NCBI RefSeq assembly: GCF_000013405.1
Contig: NC_007759.1
Coordinates: forward strand, 1,613,001-1,677,000
Reading direction: 5' to 3'
Length of the DNA stretch: 64,000 nt
Origin: Syntrophus aciditrophicus SB
GTDB lineage: Bacteria > Desulfobacterota > Syntrophia > Syntrophales > Syntrophaceae
Shown: one piece after another, positions 57,907-62,798 of the stretch
How the letters are laid out: each line of letters opens with the position of its first letter
Numbering within the stretch: position 1 is the stretch's first letter
Translations under genes and position numbers: made by a program
The notes under the pieces: model-generated
Told to the model about the DNA's origin: nothing
Database searches by the model: none
The model's input: only the letters and a program-made list of their open reading frames with translations

Positions 57907-58950
57907 ATGCGTGAGCAATCGTCATATAAGGATGCGGGCGTGGACATTGATAAGGCCAATCTCTTCATTAGCAGGATCATTCCTCTTATCAAGATGACAT
58001 CAAGAAAAGAGGTAATGAAGGGAATCGGAGGATTTGGAGGACTTTTCCACCTGGATCTCAAAAAAATCAAAGATCCTGTACTGGTTGCTGCAACAGATGG
58101 TGTGGGTACGAAGATCAAGATCGCCCAGATGATGAACAAACACGATACGGTAGGCATCGATCTTGTTGCCATGTCCGTCAACGACATCATCGTTCAGGGA
58201 GCTGAACCCATATTTTTCCTTGATTATATCGCCATCGGACAGATGGATGTTGAACGCAACGTCAAGCTTATAGAGGGGATCGTCAAGGGTTGCCAGGAAG
58301 CTGGATGTGCCTTGATCGGTGGTGAAACGGCCGAAATGCCGGGCATTTATTCTGAAAACGAATATGATCTGGCCGGCTTCTGCATCGGTGTTGTTGAAAA
58401 CGGCAGAATCATCGACGGTTCGGACATTCGCGTCGGCGACCGTGTAATCGGAATTGCATCAAACGGCATTCACAGCAACGGATATTCCCTGGTTCGCAAG
58501 GTTATATTTGACAAAGCAAAGTTAAATGTCGACGACACAATAGAGGGTATCGAAAATTCCATTGGAGAAGAACTTCTGCGGCCAACACGAATCTATGTCA
58601 AACCCGTCCTTAATTTAATGAAGAGCTTTAATATCAAAGGGATTGTTCATATTACGGGTGGAGGCTTTGTTGACAATATTCCCAGAATCGTTCCCAATCA
58701 ATGCTGCACTGTGATCCGAATGAACAGTTGGCAGATTCCGCCCATATTCAGTATTATCCAGGAGCTCGGTGATATTGACCAGATGGAAATGGTCCGTGTA
58801 TTCAATATGGGAATCGGAATGATCCTCATTGTTTCAGAAAAGGAAACCGATGATATTGTGGAACGCCTCAACATGCTGGGGGAAAAGGCCTATATTATCG
58901 GATCTATCGAAAAAGCTGACGGCGAGAAAAGCGCTGTTTCTTTTACATAG
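57907..58950 (+). CDS. purM: Phosphoribosylformylglycinamidine cyclo-ligase
   Basis: A 347-residue AIR synthetase, fifth step of purine synthesis. The ATP-binding DGVGTKIKIAQM, GVDLVAM-like IDLVAMSVNDIIVQGAEP, and GGETAEMPGIY are diagnostic. GGGGAG sits about eight bases before the ATG. Followed 15 bases later by purN, the usual pair. Confidence 0.96.
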   Translation: MREQSSYKDAGVDIDKANLFISRIIPLIKMTSRKEVMKGIGGFGGLFHLDLKKIKDPVLVAATDGVGTKIKIAQMMNKHDTVGIDLVAMSVNDIIVQGAEPIFFLDYIAIGQMDVERNVKLIEGIVKGCQEAGCALIGGETAEMPGIYSENEYDLAGFCIGVVENGRIIDGSDIRVGDRVIGIASNGIHSNGYSLVRKVIFDKAKLNVDDTIEGIENSIGEELLRPTRIYVKPVLNLMKSFNIKGIVHITGGGFVDNIPRIVPNQCCTVIRMNSWQIPPIFSIIQELGDIDQMEMVRVFNMGIGMILIVSEKETDDIVERLNMLGEKAYIIGSIEKADGEKSAVSFT

Positions 58951-58965
58951 CCTGATATATTGATT

Positions 58966-59631
58966 ATGAACAGAAAGCTGCCTATTGGTGTCCTTGTCTC
59001 CGGAAGCGGTTCAAACCTGCAGTCCATCATTGATCACATTGAGCGGGGTCTACTTGGTGCGGAGATCAAGGTGGTGATCAGCAACGTACCAGATGCCTAT
59101 GCCTTGGAACGGGCCCGAAAACATCACCTTCCCACTCTCGTTATTCGTCATGAAGATTTTGAAACAAGGGAAGCATTCGACGCGGAAATTGTCCGTGTCT
59201 TTAAATCCGCAGATGTTGAGCTTGTCGTTATGGCCGGTTTTATGAGAATTATCACTCCTGTTTTACTTGATGCCTATCCGTACAGGGTCATGAACATTCA
59301 CCCTGCCCTTCTGCCTTCATTCCGGGGCATGAACGCGCAGCGTCAGGCTGTCGATTACGGTGTCCGATTTTCAGGATGCACGGTTCATTTTGTCGACCAA
59401 GGCGTTGATTCCGGTCCTATCATCATTCAGGCGGTTGTCCCCGTTCTTGATGAAGATACGGAAGAAACCCTTTCTGCAAGGATTTTAAAAGAGGAACACC
59501 GAATTTATCCCCAAGCCATTCAGTTTTTTGTCGAAGGACGAATTTCTGTCAATAATCGCAGGGTAAGAATTCGAGACGGAAAATGTGACGAATTCTTAAC
59601 AGTTCATAACCCTGCCCTTTCCGGATTCTAA
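58966..59631 (+). CDS. purN: Phosphoribosylglycinamide formyltransferase
   Basis: A 221-residue folate-dependent GAR transformylase, third step of purine synthesis. GVLVSGSGSNLQSIID binds the phosphate, FMRIITPVLLDAYPYRVMNIHPALLPSFRGMNAQ holds the Asn-His catalytic pair, and GCTVHFVDQGVDSGPII the Asp. I use the ATG at 58966; a TTG two codons upstream is possible. Confidence 0.95.
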   Translation: MNRKLPIGVLVSGSGSNLQSIIDHIERGLLGAEIKVVISNVPDAYALERARKHHLPTLVIRHEDFETREAFDAEIVRVFKSADVELVVMAGFMRIITPVLLDAYPYRVMNIHPALLPSFRGMNAQRQAVDYGVRFSGCTVHFVDQGVDSGPIIIQAVVPVLDEDTEETLSARILKEEHRIYPQAIQFFVEGRISVNNRRVRIRDGKCDEFLTVHNPALSGF

Positions 59632-59769
59632 AAAAAGGCAAAAAACTTTATATAATATTATACTATCAATTACATATATAAAGGGCTGTTCTGTTCTTTT
59701 TTTTGTGTTATACATAAATTAAAACATATTTTAGTCTCCAGCTTGCGGCACGGGAGGATTAATGGTTTC

Positions 59770-61134
59770 ATGAAAAAAGTTCAGCAGGAAGATTATATTA
59801 TACAAAACTTGGGTGAATGTGCGATCCAGTCTCCGGTAATCGTTAATGATTTTACGCCCGACAGCAAGCGTTTGCTGCTGAAACAATATCTTGACTATAG
59901 TAATACCGGAAAAAATAAGGACGAAAAAGTGAAAAGGGAGATTCCCCTTTCTGTGGAAGTGGCAGGTCCACGGGAAAAAATATTTTTCGATCCTTCCAAA
60001 ACAAAAGCGGCGATTGTCACTTGCGGCGGCTTGTGCCCGGGAATCAATGACGTGATTCGCGCCATCGTCATGCAATTATATCACCGTTACGGTGTTCGCA
60101 ACATAATTGGAATAAAGTATGGATTCCAAGGACTTATACCATCATACGGACATGAAATTGTTGAATTGACGCCTGAATCGGTTGAAAATATCCATCGCGA
60201 AGGTGGCAGTATATTATCTTCCTCACGAGGTCAGCAGAATATTGGAGAAATGGTTGACGCCCTTTCGCGAATGAATGTCAATATTTTTTTCTGTATCGGC
60301 GGTGATGGAACCATGCGCGCGGCTGAACGCATTACAGAGGAAATTACAAGACGAAAATTAAGCATAAGCCTAATCGGTATCCCGAAAACGATCGATAACG
60401 ATCTGAATTTTGTTCAGAAAACATTCGGGTTTGATACAGCAATCGCTGAATCCGAAAACGCAATCTCCTGCGCCCATGTTGAAGCGAAAGGTGCGCCTAT
60501 GGGAATAGGACTCGTCAAGATTATGGGACGGCTCTCCGGTCAGATCGCTGTTGGTGCGGCACTGGCACAGAATGACGTCAATTTTGTCCTGATTCCCGAA
60601 GTACCTTTTGATCTTGAAGGCGAAAACGGCCTCTTCAAAGCCTTGGAAAAACGTCTCATACGCAGAAAACATTGTGTTATTCTTGTGGCAGAAGGCGCCG
60701 GTCAGGAACTGATGCGCACAAATAATACGCCTCAGGAAACAGATGCTTCCGGCAATATCCGTCTGCTGGATATCGGCTATTTTTTAAAGGTGCGGATTGA
60801 AGACTACTTTAAAAAAGCGGGCATCCAGATCAATCTGAAATATATTGACCCCAGCTATATGATTCGCAGTGTTCGCGCAAGTGCCAGCGACAGTATCTAT
60901 TGCTCCGCTCTTGGCCAGTACGCCGTTCATGCCGGGATGGCCGGAAAAACCGGGATGCTGGTCGGTTTATTGAAAGATGAATATGTCCACTTGCCAATCC
61001 GGGTTGTTACTTCAGGGAAACAGATCGATCCGGAAGGCAATTTATGGATGCGGGTTCTTGAATCGACGGGTCAGCCTCCTTCCTTGCTTAATAAACCTTT
61101 GGACCCTCCTGTTGAGGAACATGTTGTTATTTGA
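59770..61134 (+). CDS. 6-phosphofructokinase, group with GGDGT signature (probably ATP-dependent)
   Basis: A 454-residue PFK of the long clade that includes plant and Treponema-type enzymes. It has an N-terminal extension of about 85 residues before the fold begins at AAIVTCGGLCPGINDVIRA. The donor-site motif GGDGTMRAA has Gly where PPi enzymes have Asp, pointing to ATP; but PKTIDND has the Lys typical of PPi enzymes, so the pattern is mixed. Substrate residues in MGRLSGQIAV. ATG at 59770 with GGGAGG 12 bases upstream. Convergent with a second PFK. Confidence 0.87.
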   Translation: MKKVQQEDYIIQNLGECAIQSPVIVNDFTPDSKRLLLKQYLDYSNTGKNKDEKVKREIPLSVEVAGPREKIFFDPSKTKAAIVTCGGLCPGINDVIRAIVMQLYHRYGVRNIIGIKYGFQGLIPSYGHEIVELTPESVENIHREGGSILSSSRGQQNIGEMVDALSRMNVNIFFCIGGDGTMRAAERITEEITRRKLSISLIGIPKTIDNDLNFVQKTFGFDTAIAESENAISCAHVEAKGAPMGIGLVKIMGRLSGQIAVGAALAQNDVNFVLIPEVPFDLEGENGLFKALEKRLIRRKHCVILVAEGAGQELMRTNNTPQETDASGNIRLLDIGYFLKVRIEDYFKKAGIQINLKYIDPSYMIRSVRASASDSIYCSALGQYAVHAGMAGKTGMLVGLLKDEYVHLPIRVVTSGKQIDPEGNLWMRVLESTGQPPSLLNKPLDPPVEEHVVI

Positions 61135-61154
61135 ATTTTTCCATGGGTGAGAAA

Positions 61155-61184
61155 AGCCCGCCAGTTAAACCTTACCGGCGGGCT
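61155..61184 (-). terminator. Terminator between the two phosphofructokinase genes
   Basis: Perfect 8-base stem AGCCCGCC (61155-61162) / GGCGGGCT (61177-61184) with a 14-base loop. On the reverse strand a T-run (TTTTC) follows, so it fits best as the end of the reverse PFK gene; it may also stop the forward one. Confidence 0.65.
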
Positions 61185-61232
61185 AAGCATAAATCCAACA
61201 CCTATAGAAAAATCCAGGTTAAATATCTAACT

Positions 61233-62339
61233 TTAACTGATTATGGATCGACGTCCATTATATCGTTCTTTGTCGTAATACTTTACAGTATCCACAAGTT
61301 TTAATTTTCCGATGCATTCCTTCAGAGGAACACTGGTAATTTCACCCCGCTGCAGGCTTGCCATACGGCCAAAATCTTCATTAATAATCATATCCACCGC
61401 AGCGATTCCAAACCATCTTGCCATCAGTCTGTCATGGGCTGATGGTGTACCGCCGCGCTGCAAATGACTAAGGATTAAGTGTCTGGTCTCCAGACTCGTT
61501 CTTCCTTCAATTTCATCAGCGACGAATTTGGCTATCCCCCCAAGAGCGACATGGCCGAATTCATCTATTTTGGAACTTGTGATAAACTCTTTCTGACCGA
61601 CCGGCTTCGCTCCCTCAGAGACAACAAGAATGGCATAGCGGATTTCCCTTCCTTTTCTTTCCTGGAGCAGCGTGCATATTTCATCGAGATTAAATGGATG
61701 TTCAGGAATAAGAATGATATAGGCGCCACTGCATTCACCGCCATGAAGTGCAAGCCATCCGGCGTGACGTCCCATGGTTTCCACAACGAAAATCCGGCTG
61801 TGTGAACCGGCTGTCGTCCGCAGACGGTCGATTTCTTCCGTAATCACATTGACGGCAGTGTCGAATCCAATAGAATAATCCGTTCCAACCAAGTCGTTAT
61901 CAATTGTCTTAGGAATACCAACGGTCTTGATTCCCAGTTTGTGCAGACTGTAAGCCGCCCCCAGAGTATCTTCCCCTCCGATGGCGACAACTACATCAAT
62001 TCCGAGTTTTTTAATATTATCCAGTAATATTTCCGATCTGTCATTTTTGGGATTGAAAGGATTGGTGCGTGAAGTTCCGAGGTTAGTCCCTCCATAACGG
62101 TCCCACGTCCGAACGATTTCTTCATCAAGAGGACGAGTGTATTTTGCCAGGCTTTTGGGATCGTCCGGATCAACATCAACCAGTCCACGCCATCCATCCG
62201 TAATCCCAATGACTTCGAATGACATGGAACGTTTTGATCCCAACCATTGATCTGTTGCACTTTTTGTAACCCATTTTACCGCGCCGTTCAAACCGGGACA
62301 ATCACCACCGCCTGTCAGTACAGCAATTTTCATTTTCAT
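61233..62339 (-). CDS. Pyrophosphate-type phosphofructokinase
   Basis: A 368-residue PFK starting MKMKIAVLTGGGDCPGLNGAV. Donor-site residues are GGEDTLGAA and PKTIDND: the Asp and the Lys both match PPi-dependent enzymes (Amycolatopsis-like clade) rather than ATP-dependent ones. VETMGRHAGWLAL binds fructose 6-phosphate. The PPi reaction is reversible and so can serve both glycolysis and gluconeogenesis. I start it at 62339 with GGGAGG six bases upstream; the longer frame to 62447 adds 36 residues with no family character. Confidence 0.9.
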   Translation of the reverse strand: MKMKIAVLTGGGDCPGLNGAVKWVTKSATDQWLGSKRSMSFEVIGITDGWRGLVDVDPDDPKSLAKYTRPLDEEIVRTWDRYGGTNLGTSRTNPFNPKNDRSEILLDNIKKLGIDVVVAIGGEDTLGAAYSLHKLGIKTVGIPKTIDNDLVGTDYSIGFDTAVNVITEEIDRLRTTAGSHSRIFVVETMGRHAGWLALHGGECSGAYIILIPEHPFNLDEICTLLQERKGREIRYAILVVSEGAKPVGQKEFITSSKIDEFGHVALGGIAKFVADEIEGRTSLETRHLILSHLQRGGTPSAHDRLMARWFGIAAVDMIINEDFGRMASLQRGEITSVPLKECIGKLKLVDTVKYYDKERYNGRRSIIS

Positions 62340-62600
62340 AAGCAGCCTCCCATGATTTATGAATTCACTTGTCAAATAAATAAATTGGTAATATTCCTCT
62401 GTGCCTTGCCTGGCGCGGGCCATCTGTTTGCGTGAAGCTTTTAACATAAGTGCTTCAAAAGAATCTATCTTTTTTCATCTATTGAAAGTTGCCTGAGGGA
62501 TAAGGAACTTGAATGAAATTAGATAAAGATAAAAAGTTCTTGCAAAAATAAACGTTATGTTTTAGTAACCAACGCATTCTTTTGAAGGGAGAAATGGTAC

Positions 62601-62798
62601 ATGTCTAGAATTTGTGACGTTTGTGGCAAGGGTCCGGTTGTCGGAAACAATGTGAGCCATGCAAATAATAAAACAAAGAAAGTTTGGTATCCCAATCTTC
62701 AGAGCCTCAGATGCCTTGACGGCAAAACAGGCGCAGTTAAAAGAATGAAGGTCTGCACGCGCTGTTTGCGTTCAGGTTTTGTAAAAAAGGCCTTGTAA
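62601..62798 (+). CDS. rpmB: 50S ribosomal protein L28
   Basis: A 65-residue L28 of the zinc-binding type: [28 protein letters not shown] begins with CxxC, and [12 protein letters not shown] supplies the second pair. GAAGGGAG lies eight bases before the ATG. No rpmG next to it. Confidence 0.96.

Follow-up and report, generated by a model that had tools for sequence, protein, structure and literature searches.

Two adjacent 6-phosphofructokinase (PFK) genes of different PFK-A branches were found in the window, the 64 kb stretch of DNA analysed here from the single-contig genome G000 (3,179,300 bases). We consider it probable that the forward gene, pfkF, works with ATP and the reverse gene, pfkR, reversibly with pyrophosphate (PPi), and that pfkR is an accessory gene set in a pur-pfkF-rpmB cluster, most likely linking hexose flux to PPi. 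The genes, their motifs and their neighbours are listed in Table 1.

Table 1. Positions of the two PFK genes, their motifs and their neighbours in the window
Feature	Position	Strand	Basis or remark
purM and purN (upstream of pfkF)	57907..59631	+	ORFs; purN by PF00551; purM presumed from reading of the ORF
pfkF	59770..61134	+	454 aa; trypanosome-branch ('50 kDa', NF005301/PRK06830) phosphofructokinase, predicted ATP-dependent
GGDGT donor motif of pfkF	60298..60312	+	Ala at E. coli position 108, four residues past the deciding Gly
PKTIDND of pfkF, including the catalytic Asp	60382..60402	+	motif located in sequence
Hairpin between the convergent genes	61155..61184	.	11-bp stem, 8-base loop
pfkR	61233..62339	-	368 aa; short phosphofructokinase, predicted PPi-dependent
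PKTIDND of pfkR, including the catalytic Asp	61893..61913	-	motif located in sequence
GGEDT donor motif of pfkR, Asp at E. coli position 104	61965..61979	-	motif located in sequence
rpmB (ribosomal protein L28), far-side neighbour	62601..62798	+	PF00830

Families and donor motifs of the two enzymes

Both open reading frames were found to be convergent, tail to tail, as an earlier note on this DNA had described them, and the motif pairs that it read, GGDGT with PKTIDND in the forward gene and GGEDT with PKTIDND in the reverse gene, were located in them. The ATG of pfkF at 59770 has GGGAGG 12 bases upstream, and its open frame extends back to a TTG at 59743 (463-aa form); the ATG of pfkR at 62339 has GGGAGG 6 bases upstream, in a frame that extends back to an ATG at 62447. 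The stops end at 61134 and 61233, with 98 bp between them. PF00365 scores of 203 bits (pfkF) and 315 bits (pfkR) lie far above the cut-off of 30.9, so neither ORF is a chance match. Of 320 residues aligned between the two proteins, 98 are identical, which makes them old relatives rather than products of a recent duplication, and their sequences place them in separate branches of the PFK-A superfamily.

The Asp of PKTIDND is catalytic in the PFK family, and its Lys was kept in all 80 named relatives, with Asp at the donor position (E. coli 104) in 17 and Gly in 63. A Lys that accompanies either donor residue says nothing about the donor, so PKTIDND cannot serve as the mark of PPi use for which the earlier note took it. 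As a separate observation, 26 of the 80 (within L252-L310, mostly Bacteroidota) carried GGNGT instead of GGDGT. The motifs assigned to donors in the excerpted text of PMC11609450 are GGDGSxxG for ATP, GGDGSxxI for ADP and GG(D/E)D(S/T)xxx for PPi, and residues 104 and 108 are linked to donor use also in an excerpt of PMC10339645. A 2019 study cautioned that in many cases the donor cannot be predicted from sequence, and it detected no activity in a clade III PFK that carries Gly and Lys (excerpt of PMC6543838).

Conservation was followed in 149 genomes drawn from a larger group of the order, many of them incomplete, with ortholog thresholds of at least 60% identity for the forward gene and at least 59% for the reverse gene. 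Asp104 was present in 58 of 58 readable pfkR orthologs (GGEDT in 56, GGDDT in 2; one more, in G110, is truncated) and Gly104 in 111 of 111 readable pfkF orthologs (one more, in G108, is truncated), the donor residue being constant within each set across the sampled order. In six genomes a second copy of the forward type, at 50-53% identity, was present and was tallied separately. The donor assignment made earlier, probably ATP for the forward and PPi for the reverse gene, thus agrees with conserved motifs and stays a prediction. The Asn of PKTIDND was kept in 33 of 59 pfkR orthologs; the other 26 had it replaced, mostly by Gly or Met, and retained both Asp (for example L063, L043, L070 and L078, of families f15, f2 and f5).

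The donor motif of pfkR matches the PPi motif GG(D/E)D(S/T) published for short PPi-PFK-A enzymes (PMC11609450), and PPi use is the best reading of this gene, predicted from that motif. In a tree of 96 rows (14 of 44 reverse-ortholog loci including that of the window, all 23 paralog loci and 59 of the 80 named loci, with 21 of the 26 named GGNGT loci omitted), pfkR fell within a 21-row clade that has Asp104 throughout (SH-aLRT 99, quick method); no characterised enzyme was among the rows. Over the wider family the tree, whose deeper branches are weak, needs 7 changes between Asp and Gly. The best-scoring model for pfkR was TIGR02483 PFK_mixed, at 381.6 bits below its cut-off of 430.55. The protein passed NF002872 'ATP-dependent 6-phosphofructokinase' (342.6 bits, cut-off 253), a name in conflict with the PPi motif, so an automatic annotation would probably state the wrong donor.

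The short 'group 3' PPi-PFKs of Thermoproteus tenax and Amycolatopsis methanolica resemble pfkR in size class and PPi motif (excerpt of PMC11609450). A Caldivirga GGDDT sequence was placed on the side of the tree where pfkR lies, at a weak support of 46. The A. methanolica enzyme carries GGEDT. However, pfkR, a predicted PPi enzyme, sits in its own well-supported clade, and the T. tenax and A. methanolica enzymes are not among the tree rows. The cyanobacterial ADP-dependent PFK-A enzymes belong to the same superfamily, and PRK14071, a PFK model of the cyanobacterial type, scored 298.7 bits on pfkR. This is far below the model's cut-off of 544, and pfkR has Asp where the ADP enzymes carry Gly (excerpt of PMC11609450).

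For pfkF, the 463-aa form matched 2hig at E 3.1e-99 (336 bits) over residues 64-442 in 463-aa numbering. This entry, the T. brucei PFK (PMC7383607), was one of two PDB matches near 3e-99; the second, 6qu3, is named only as ATP-dependent 6-phosphofructokinase, and the next match stood at 3e-26. NF005301, an ATP-dependent PFK equivalog model, gave 681 bits (cut-off 400). Along its catalytic core pfkF is by these matches a member of the trypanosome-branch '50 kDa' ATP-PFK-A enzymes, and it combines Gly104 with the Lys of PKTIDND as that branch does. The T. brucei ATP-PFK (PDB 2hig, 3f5m and 6sy7) has the same GGDGT and PKTIDND, so the combination that had been called 'mixed' is no anomaly; the accompanying judgement, probably ATP, is the one suggested by the motif. 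ATP use is the best reading of pfkF, predicted from motif and family.

Further donor signatures were observed in the order. Six genomes of family f17 (L005, L007, L010, L011, L012 and L014) have a PFK with the ADP motif GGDGSxxI in addition to a PPi-type PFK, and five of them also carry the forward type, giving three donor signatures per genome. ADP-PFK-A has been found mostly in cyanobacteria and alphaproteobacteria (excerpt of PMC11609450), groups to which these genomes do not belong. A second mixed-signature pair occurs in another family of the order (L018, G119:C96, about 28 to 32 kb), where an FBPase gene, a PFK with GGDGSLRL, a variant of the ADP motif, and a divergent PFK with the PPi motif GGDDTLSY stand together; this PPi-type enzyme is on a different branch from pfkR.

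Sugar-pathway complement and pyrophosphate setting

The division of labour in the earlier note involves two PFKs, which are not the whole PFK complement of the cell. A third PF00365 gene with an ATP-type motif was found in G000 at C1:770,127-771,431, outside the window. It is 53% identical to pfkF, has Gly at position 108 (GGDGTQRG), overlaps a preceding class II aldolase gene by 4 bases and is followed downstream by pyruvate kinase; the genes for glucokinase and glucose-6-phosphate isomerase come next, on the opposite strand. This gene looks like the glycolytic copy; it is the enzyme best placed for sugar breakdown and was left out of the proposed two-enzyme division of labour. G000 also contains FBPase (PF00316 and its C-terminal domain) and three PPDK_N matches, one of them on a 908-aa frame of PPDK size. 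GlpX (PF03320) was matched in none of the 149 sampled genomes and in 8 of 14 control genomes.

Soluble pyrophosphatases were rare in the sample, PF00719 being matched in 2 and PF02833 in 9 of the 149 genomes, and neither family was matched in G000. The membrane pyrophosphatase family PF03030 was matched in 134 genomes, twice in G000. This profile fits the physiology described for S. aciditrophicus in an excerpt of PMC4992975, with a PPi pool twice as large as in E. coli, no soluble pyrophosphatase activity, production of PPi by acyl-CoA ligation and its consumption in the Acs1 reaction. A pyrophosphate-rich background, in line with the turnover assumed earlier, is supported.

FBPase was absent in 6 of 57 genomes with pfkR and in 18 of 92 without it (p 0.17; four of the negative genomes, G133, G137, G140 and G147, were identified by inference, being missing from both lists), and transaldolase in 8 of 57 and 11 of 92 (p 0.80). 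With no association in either case, the need for a gluconeogenic or a pentose role of pfkR is not supported. Replacement of FBPase by the PPi-PFK found no support in this result or in the gene content of G000. Since G000 has FBPase, gluconeogenesis may not depend on pfkR; FBPase is likewise kept in two other organisms for which a gluconeogenic role of a PPi-PFK is proposed (excerpt of PMC12203962). Replacement of transaldolase gained no support from the same survey, though the G000 gene is broken.

The search of G000 for transaldolase yielded a single family member, which is broken across two frames (L088 2397-3049; C1 ~1468396-1469048), and the other three genomes of the genus have one unbroken match each; the split may be a sequencing error or a true loss in the strain. 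It lends some weight to a mainly pentose-phosphate function for pfkR, in which the enzyme, together with aldolase, would replace transaldolase by phosphorylating sedoheptulose 7-phosphate, a role suggested for cellulolytic clostridia; the Pfp of C. thermocellum, a PPi-PFK, does phosphorylate sedoheptulose 7-phosphate (excerpt of PMC10339645). We regard this function as unlikely, since the order-wide comparison showed no link to transaldolase absence, the break may stem from an assembly error in this one genome, and the genus has pfkR alongside unbroken transaldolase.

Gene order around the pair

Among the 149 sampled genomes, pfkF was found in 112, pfkR in 57 and both in 40; the two were adjacent in 5, namely three of the four genomes of the window's genus and two of family f17. 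In 39 of the 40 genomes with both, Gly104 was combined with Asp104, and in the remaining one a gene is truncated. Possession of both genes is therefore common in the order and their adjacency rare, pfkF being the common copy of the order and pfkR an accessory gene. The side-by-side arrangement that the earlier note viewed as a device, and proposed to look for in related genomes, is accordingly the exception.

Ten pfkF neighbourhoods in which pfkR is not adjacent were fetched. All ten have purM and purN upstream, eight of them with a purN-pfkF gap of about 1.5 to 2 kb, and rpmB follows pfkF directly in seven, lies 3.7 kb on in one and is missing from the fetched stretch in two. Four of the fetched relatives carry the pair (G019, G036, G033 and G087); in these, pfkR is flanked by pfkF and rpmB, purM is present in all four and purN was matched in two. 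Where pfkR does not adjoin pfkF, nine neighbourhoods were fetched (L223-L231): rpmB stands next to pfkR in one of them (G055), and no neighbour genes of the window were found in the other eight. In G048, of the window's genus, pfkR is also beside rpmB; the 757 bases past it to the contig end hold no pfkF, which is on a different contig and stops 75 bases short of its end. A partial ORF just past this pfkR at the contig end (L023 2930-3334) presumably encodes a transposase. The order purM-purN-pfkF-rpmB looks like the older one, with pfkR between pfkF and rpmB in a few lineages. The genes would be adjacent, then, because pfkR sits inside an old and otherwise ordinary pur-pfkF-rpmB cluster.

A conserved module was rejected, with 5 of 40 genomes adjacent and one of the four genomes of the genus (G048) not adjacent as assembled. 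The tail-to-tail pair as a functional unit, that is, a co-regulated switch or valve, would account for the adjacency within the genus and in f17 and for the hairpin between the genes. On the minus strand the interval 61130-61235 folds with a z of -6.7 (0 of 200 shuffles as stable), and a short U run (UUUCUC) after the stem makes the predicted hairpin a possible terminator of pfkR; a consensus terminator scan between the genes gave 0 sites. Convergent genes, however, share no promoter, pfkF keeps its purM-purN surroundings in every fetched place without pfkR beside it, and both the 5 adjacent cases of 40 and the G048 contig speak against a unit. We judge such a unit improbable, and the position of pfkR within the older cluster is the preferred explanation of the pairing.

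Proposed roles of the ATP-type and PPi-type enzymes

Comparison with the T. brucei PFK showed differences in the donor pocket and the AMP site. Position 108, Gly in the T. brucei enzyme and in the ATP-PFK-A motif (GGDGxxxG), is Ala in pfkF and in 99 of its 111 readable orthologs, the other 12 having Gly; this lessens the certainty of ATP as donor and leaves branch membership unaffected. Residues Asn125 and Thr159, among those of the T. brucei AMP site (PMC7383607), are His and Glu in pfkF, so activation by AMP is not assured. A preference of pfkF for ADP or another nucleotide over ATP, through loss of the second donor-pocket glycine, is very improbable: ADP-PFK-As do differ from ATP enzymes at 108, and an AMP:ATP ratio of 5.9 is given for S. 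aciditrophicus on crotonate (excerpt of PMC4992975), but the ADP enzymes have Ile, much larger than Ala, those assayed are short enzymes of another branch (excerpt of PMC11609450), and the equivalog model NF005301 carries an ATP-dependent name.

With ATP as its predicted donor, pfkF would phosphorylate fructose 6-phosphate with release of ADP, Gly104 leaving space for the alpha-phosphate of the nucleotide. In pfkR, Asp104 would block the nucleotide and anchor PPi, and the same reaction, with PPi converted to Pi, would be reversible. A cell in which acyl-CoA activation yields PPi and soluble pyrophosphatase is lacking offers a pool on which a PPi-PFK could draw or which it could feed. There, pfkR would most likely allow hexose flux, whichever way it runs, to consume or regenerate PPi, chiefly in gluconeogenesis during growth on acids. 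Families, motifs, conservation and gene order were observed directly; the donors, the direction and the physiological role proposed here are predictions from them.

The division into an irreversible ATP enzyme and a reversible PPi enzyme, as the earlier note had it, is unsafe, since the closest solved relative of pfkF, the T. brucei PFK, contributes to gluconeogenesis in vivo (excerpt of PMC12121924), and the reverse direction is also described for it in vitro (excerpt of PMC6340114). More tentatively, pfkR might run backwards in vivo as an energy-saving step, a possibility to which we give limited credence. On crotonate or benzoate, fructose 1,6-bisphosphate from gluconeogenesis and Pi would yield fructose 6-phosphate and PPi, the PPi would be turned into ATP via the PPi-dependent acetyl-CoA synthetase Acs1, and the three PFKs (PPi-type, order-wide ATP-type and glycolytic-cluster ATP-type) would divide direction and donor among them. 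If this were true, the phosphate bond wasted by FBPase would be kept.

Each of the two enzymes belongs to a known kind, the pair is ordinary in kind, and bacteria with an ATP- and a PPi-PFK together are already known. In Amycolatopsis methanolica, Thermotoga maritima, Clostridium thermocellum and Pseudoclostridium, two donors likewise serve the same reaction within a cell (excerpts of PMC10339645 and PMC6543838). The ATP-type enzyme of G000 differs in being of the trypanosome branch, and its gene lies next to that of the PPi-type enzyme. No paper matched the two motif strings in a literature search, which is no claim that the pair is unpublished.

What is useful here is the presence of a third PFK, a gene order that accounts for the pairing, the donor residues conserved in the sampled order and a probable misannotation, as the general model passed by the PPi-type pfkR bears an ATP-dependent name. 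What is apparently a model syntroph, already known to run its energy metabolism on PPi, gains a probable PPi-linked hexose step by this finding, which also makes it possible to test cleanly whether PPi can be returned to Acs1 by gluconeogenesis.
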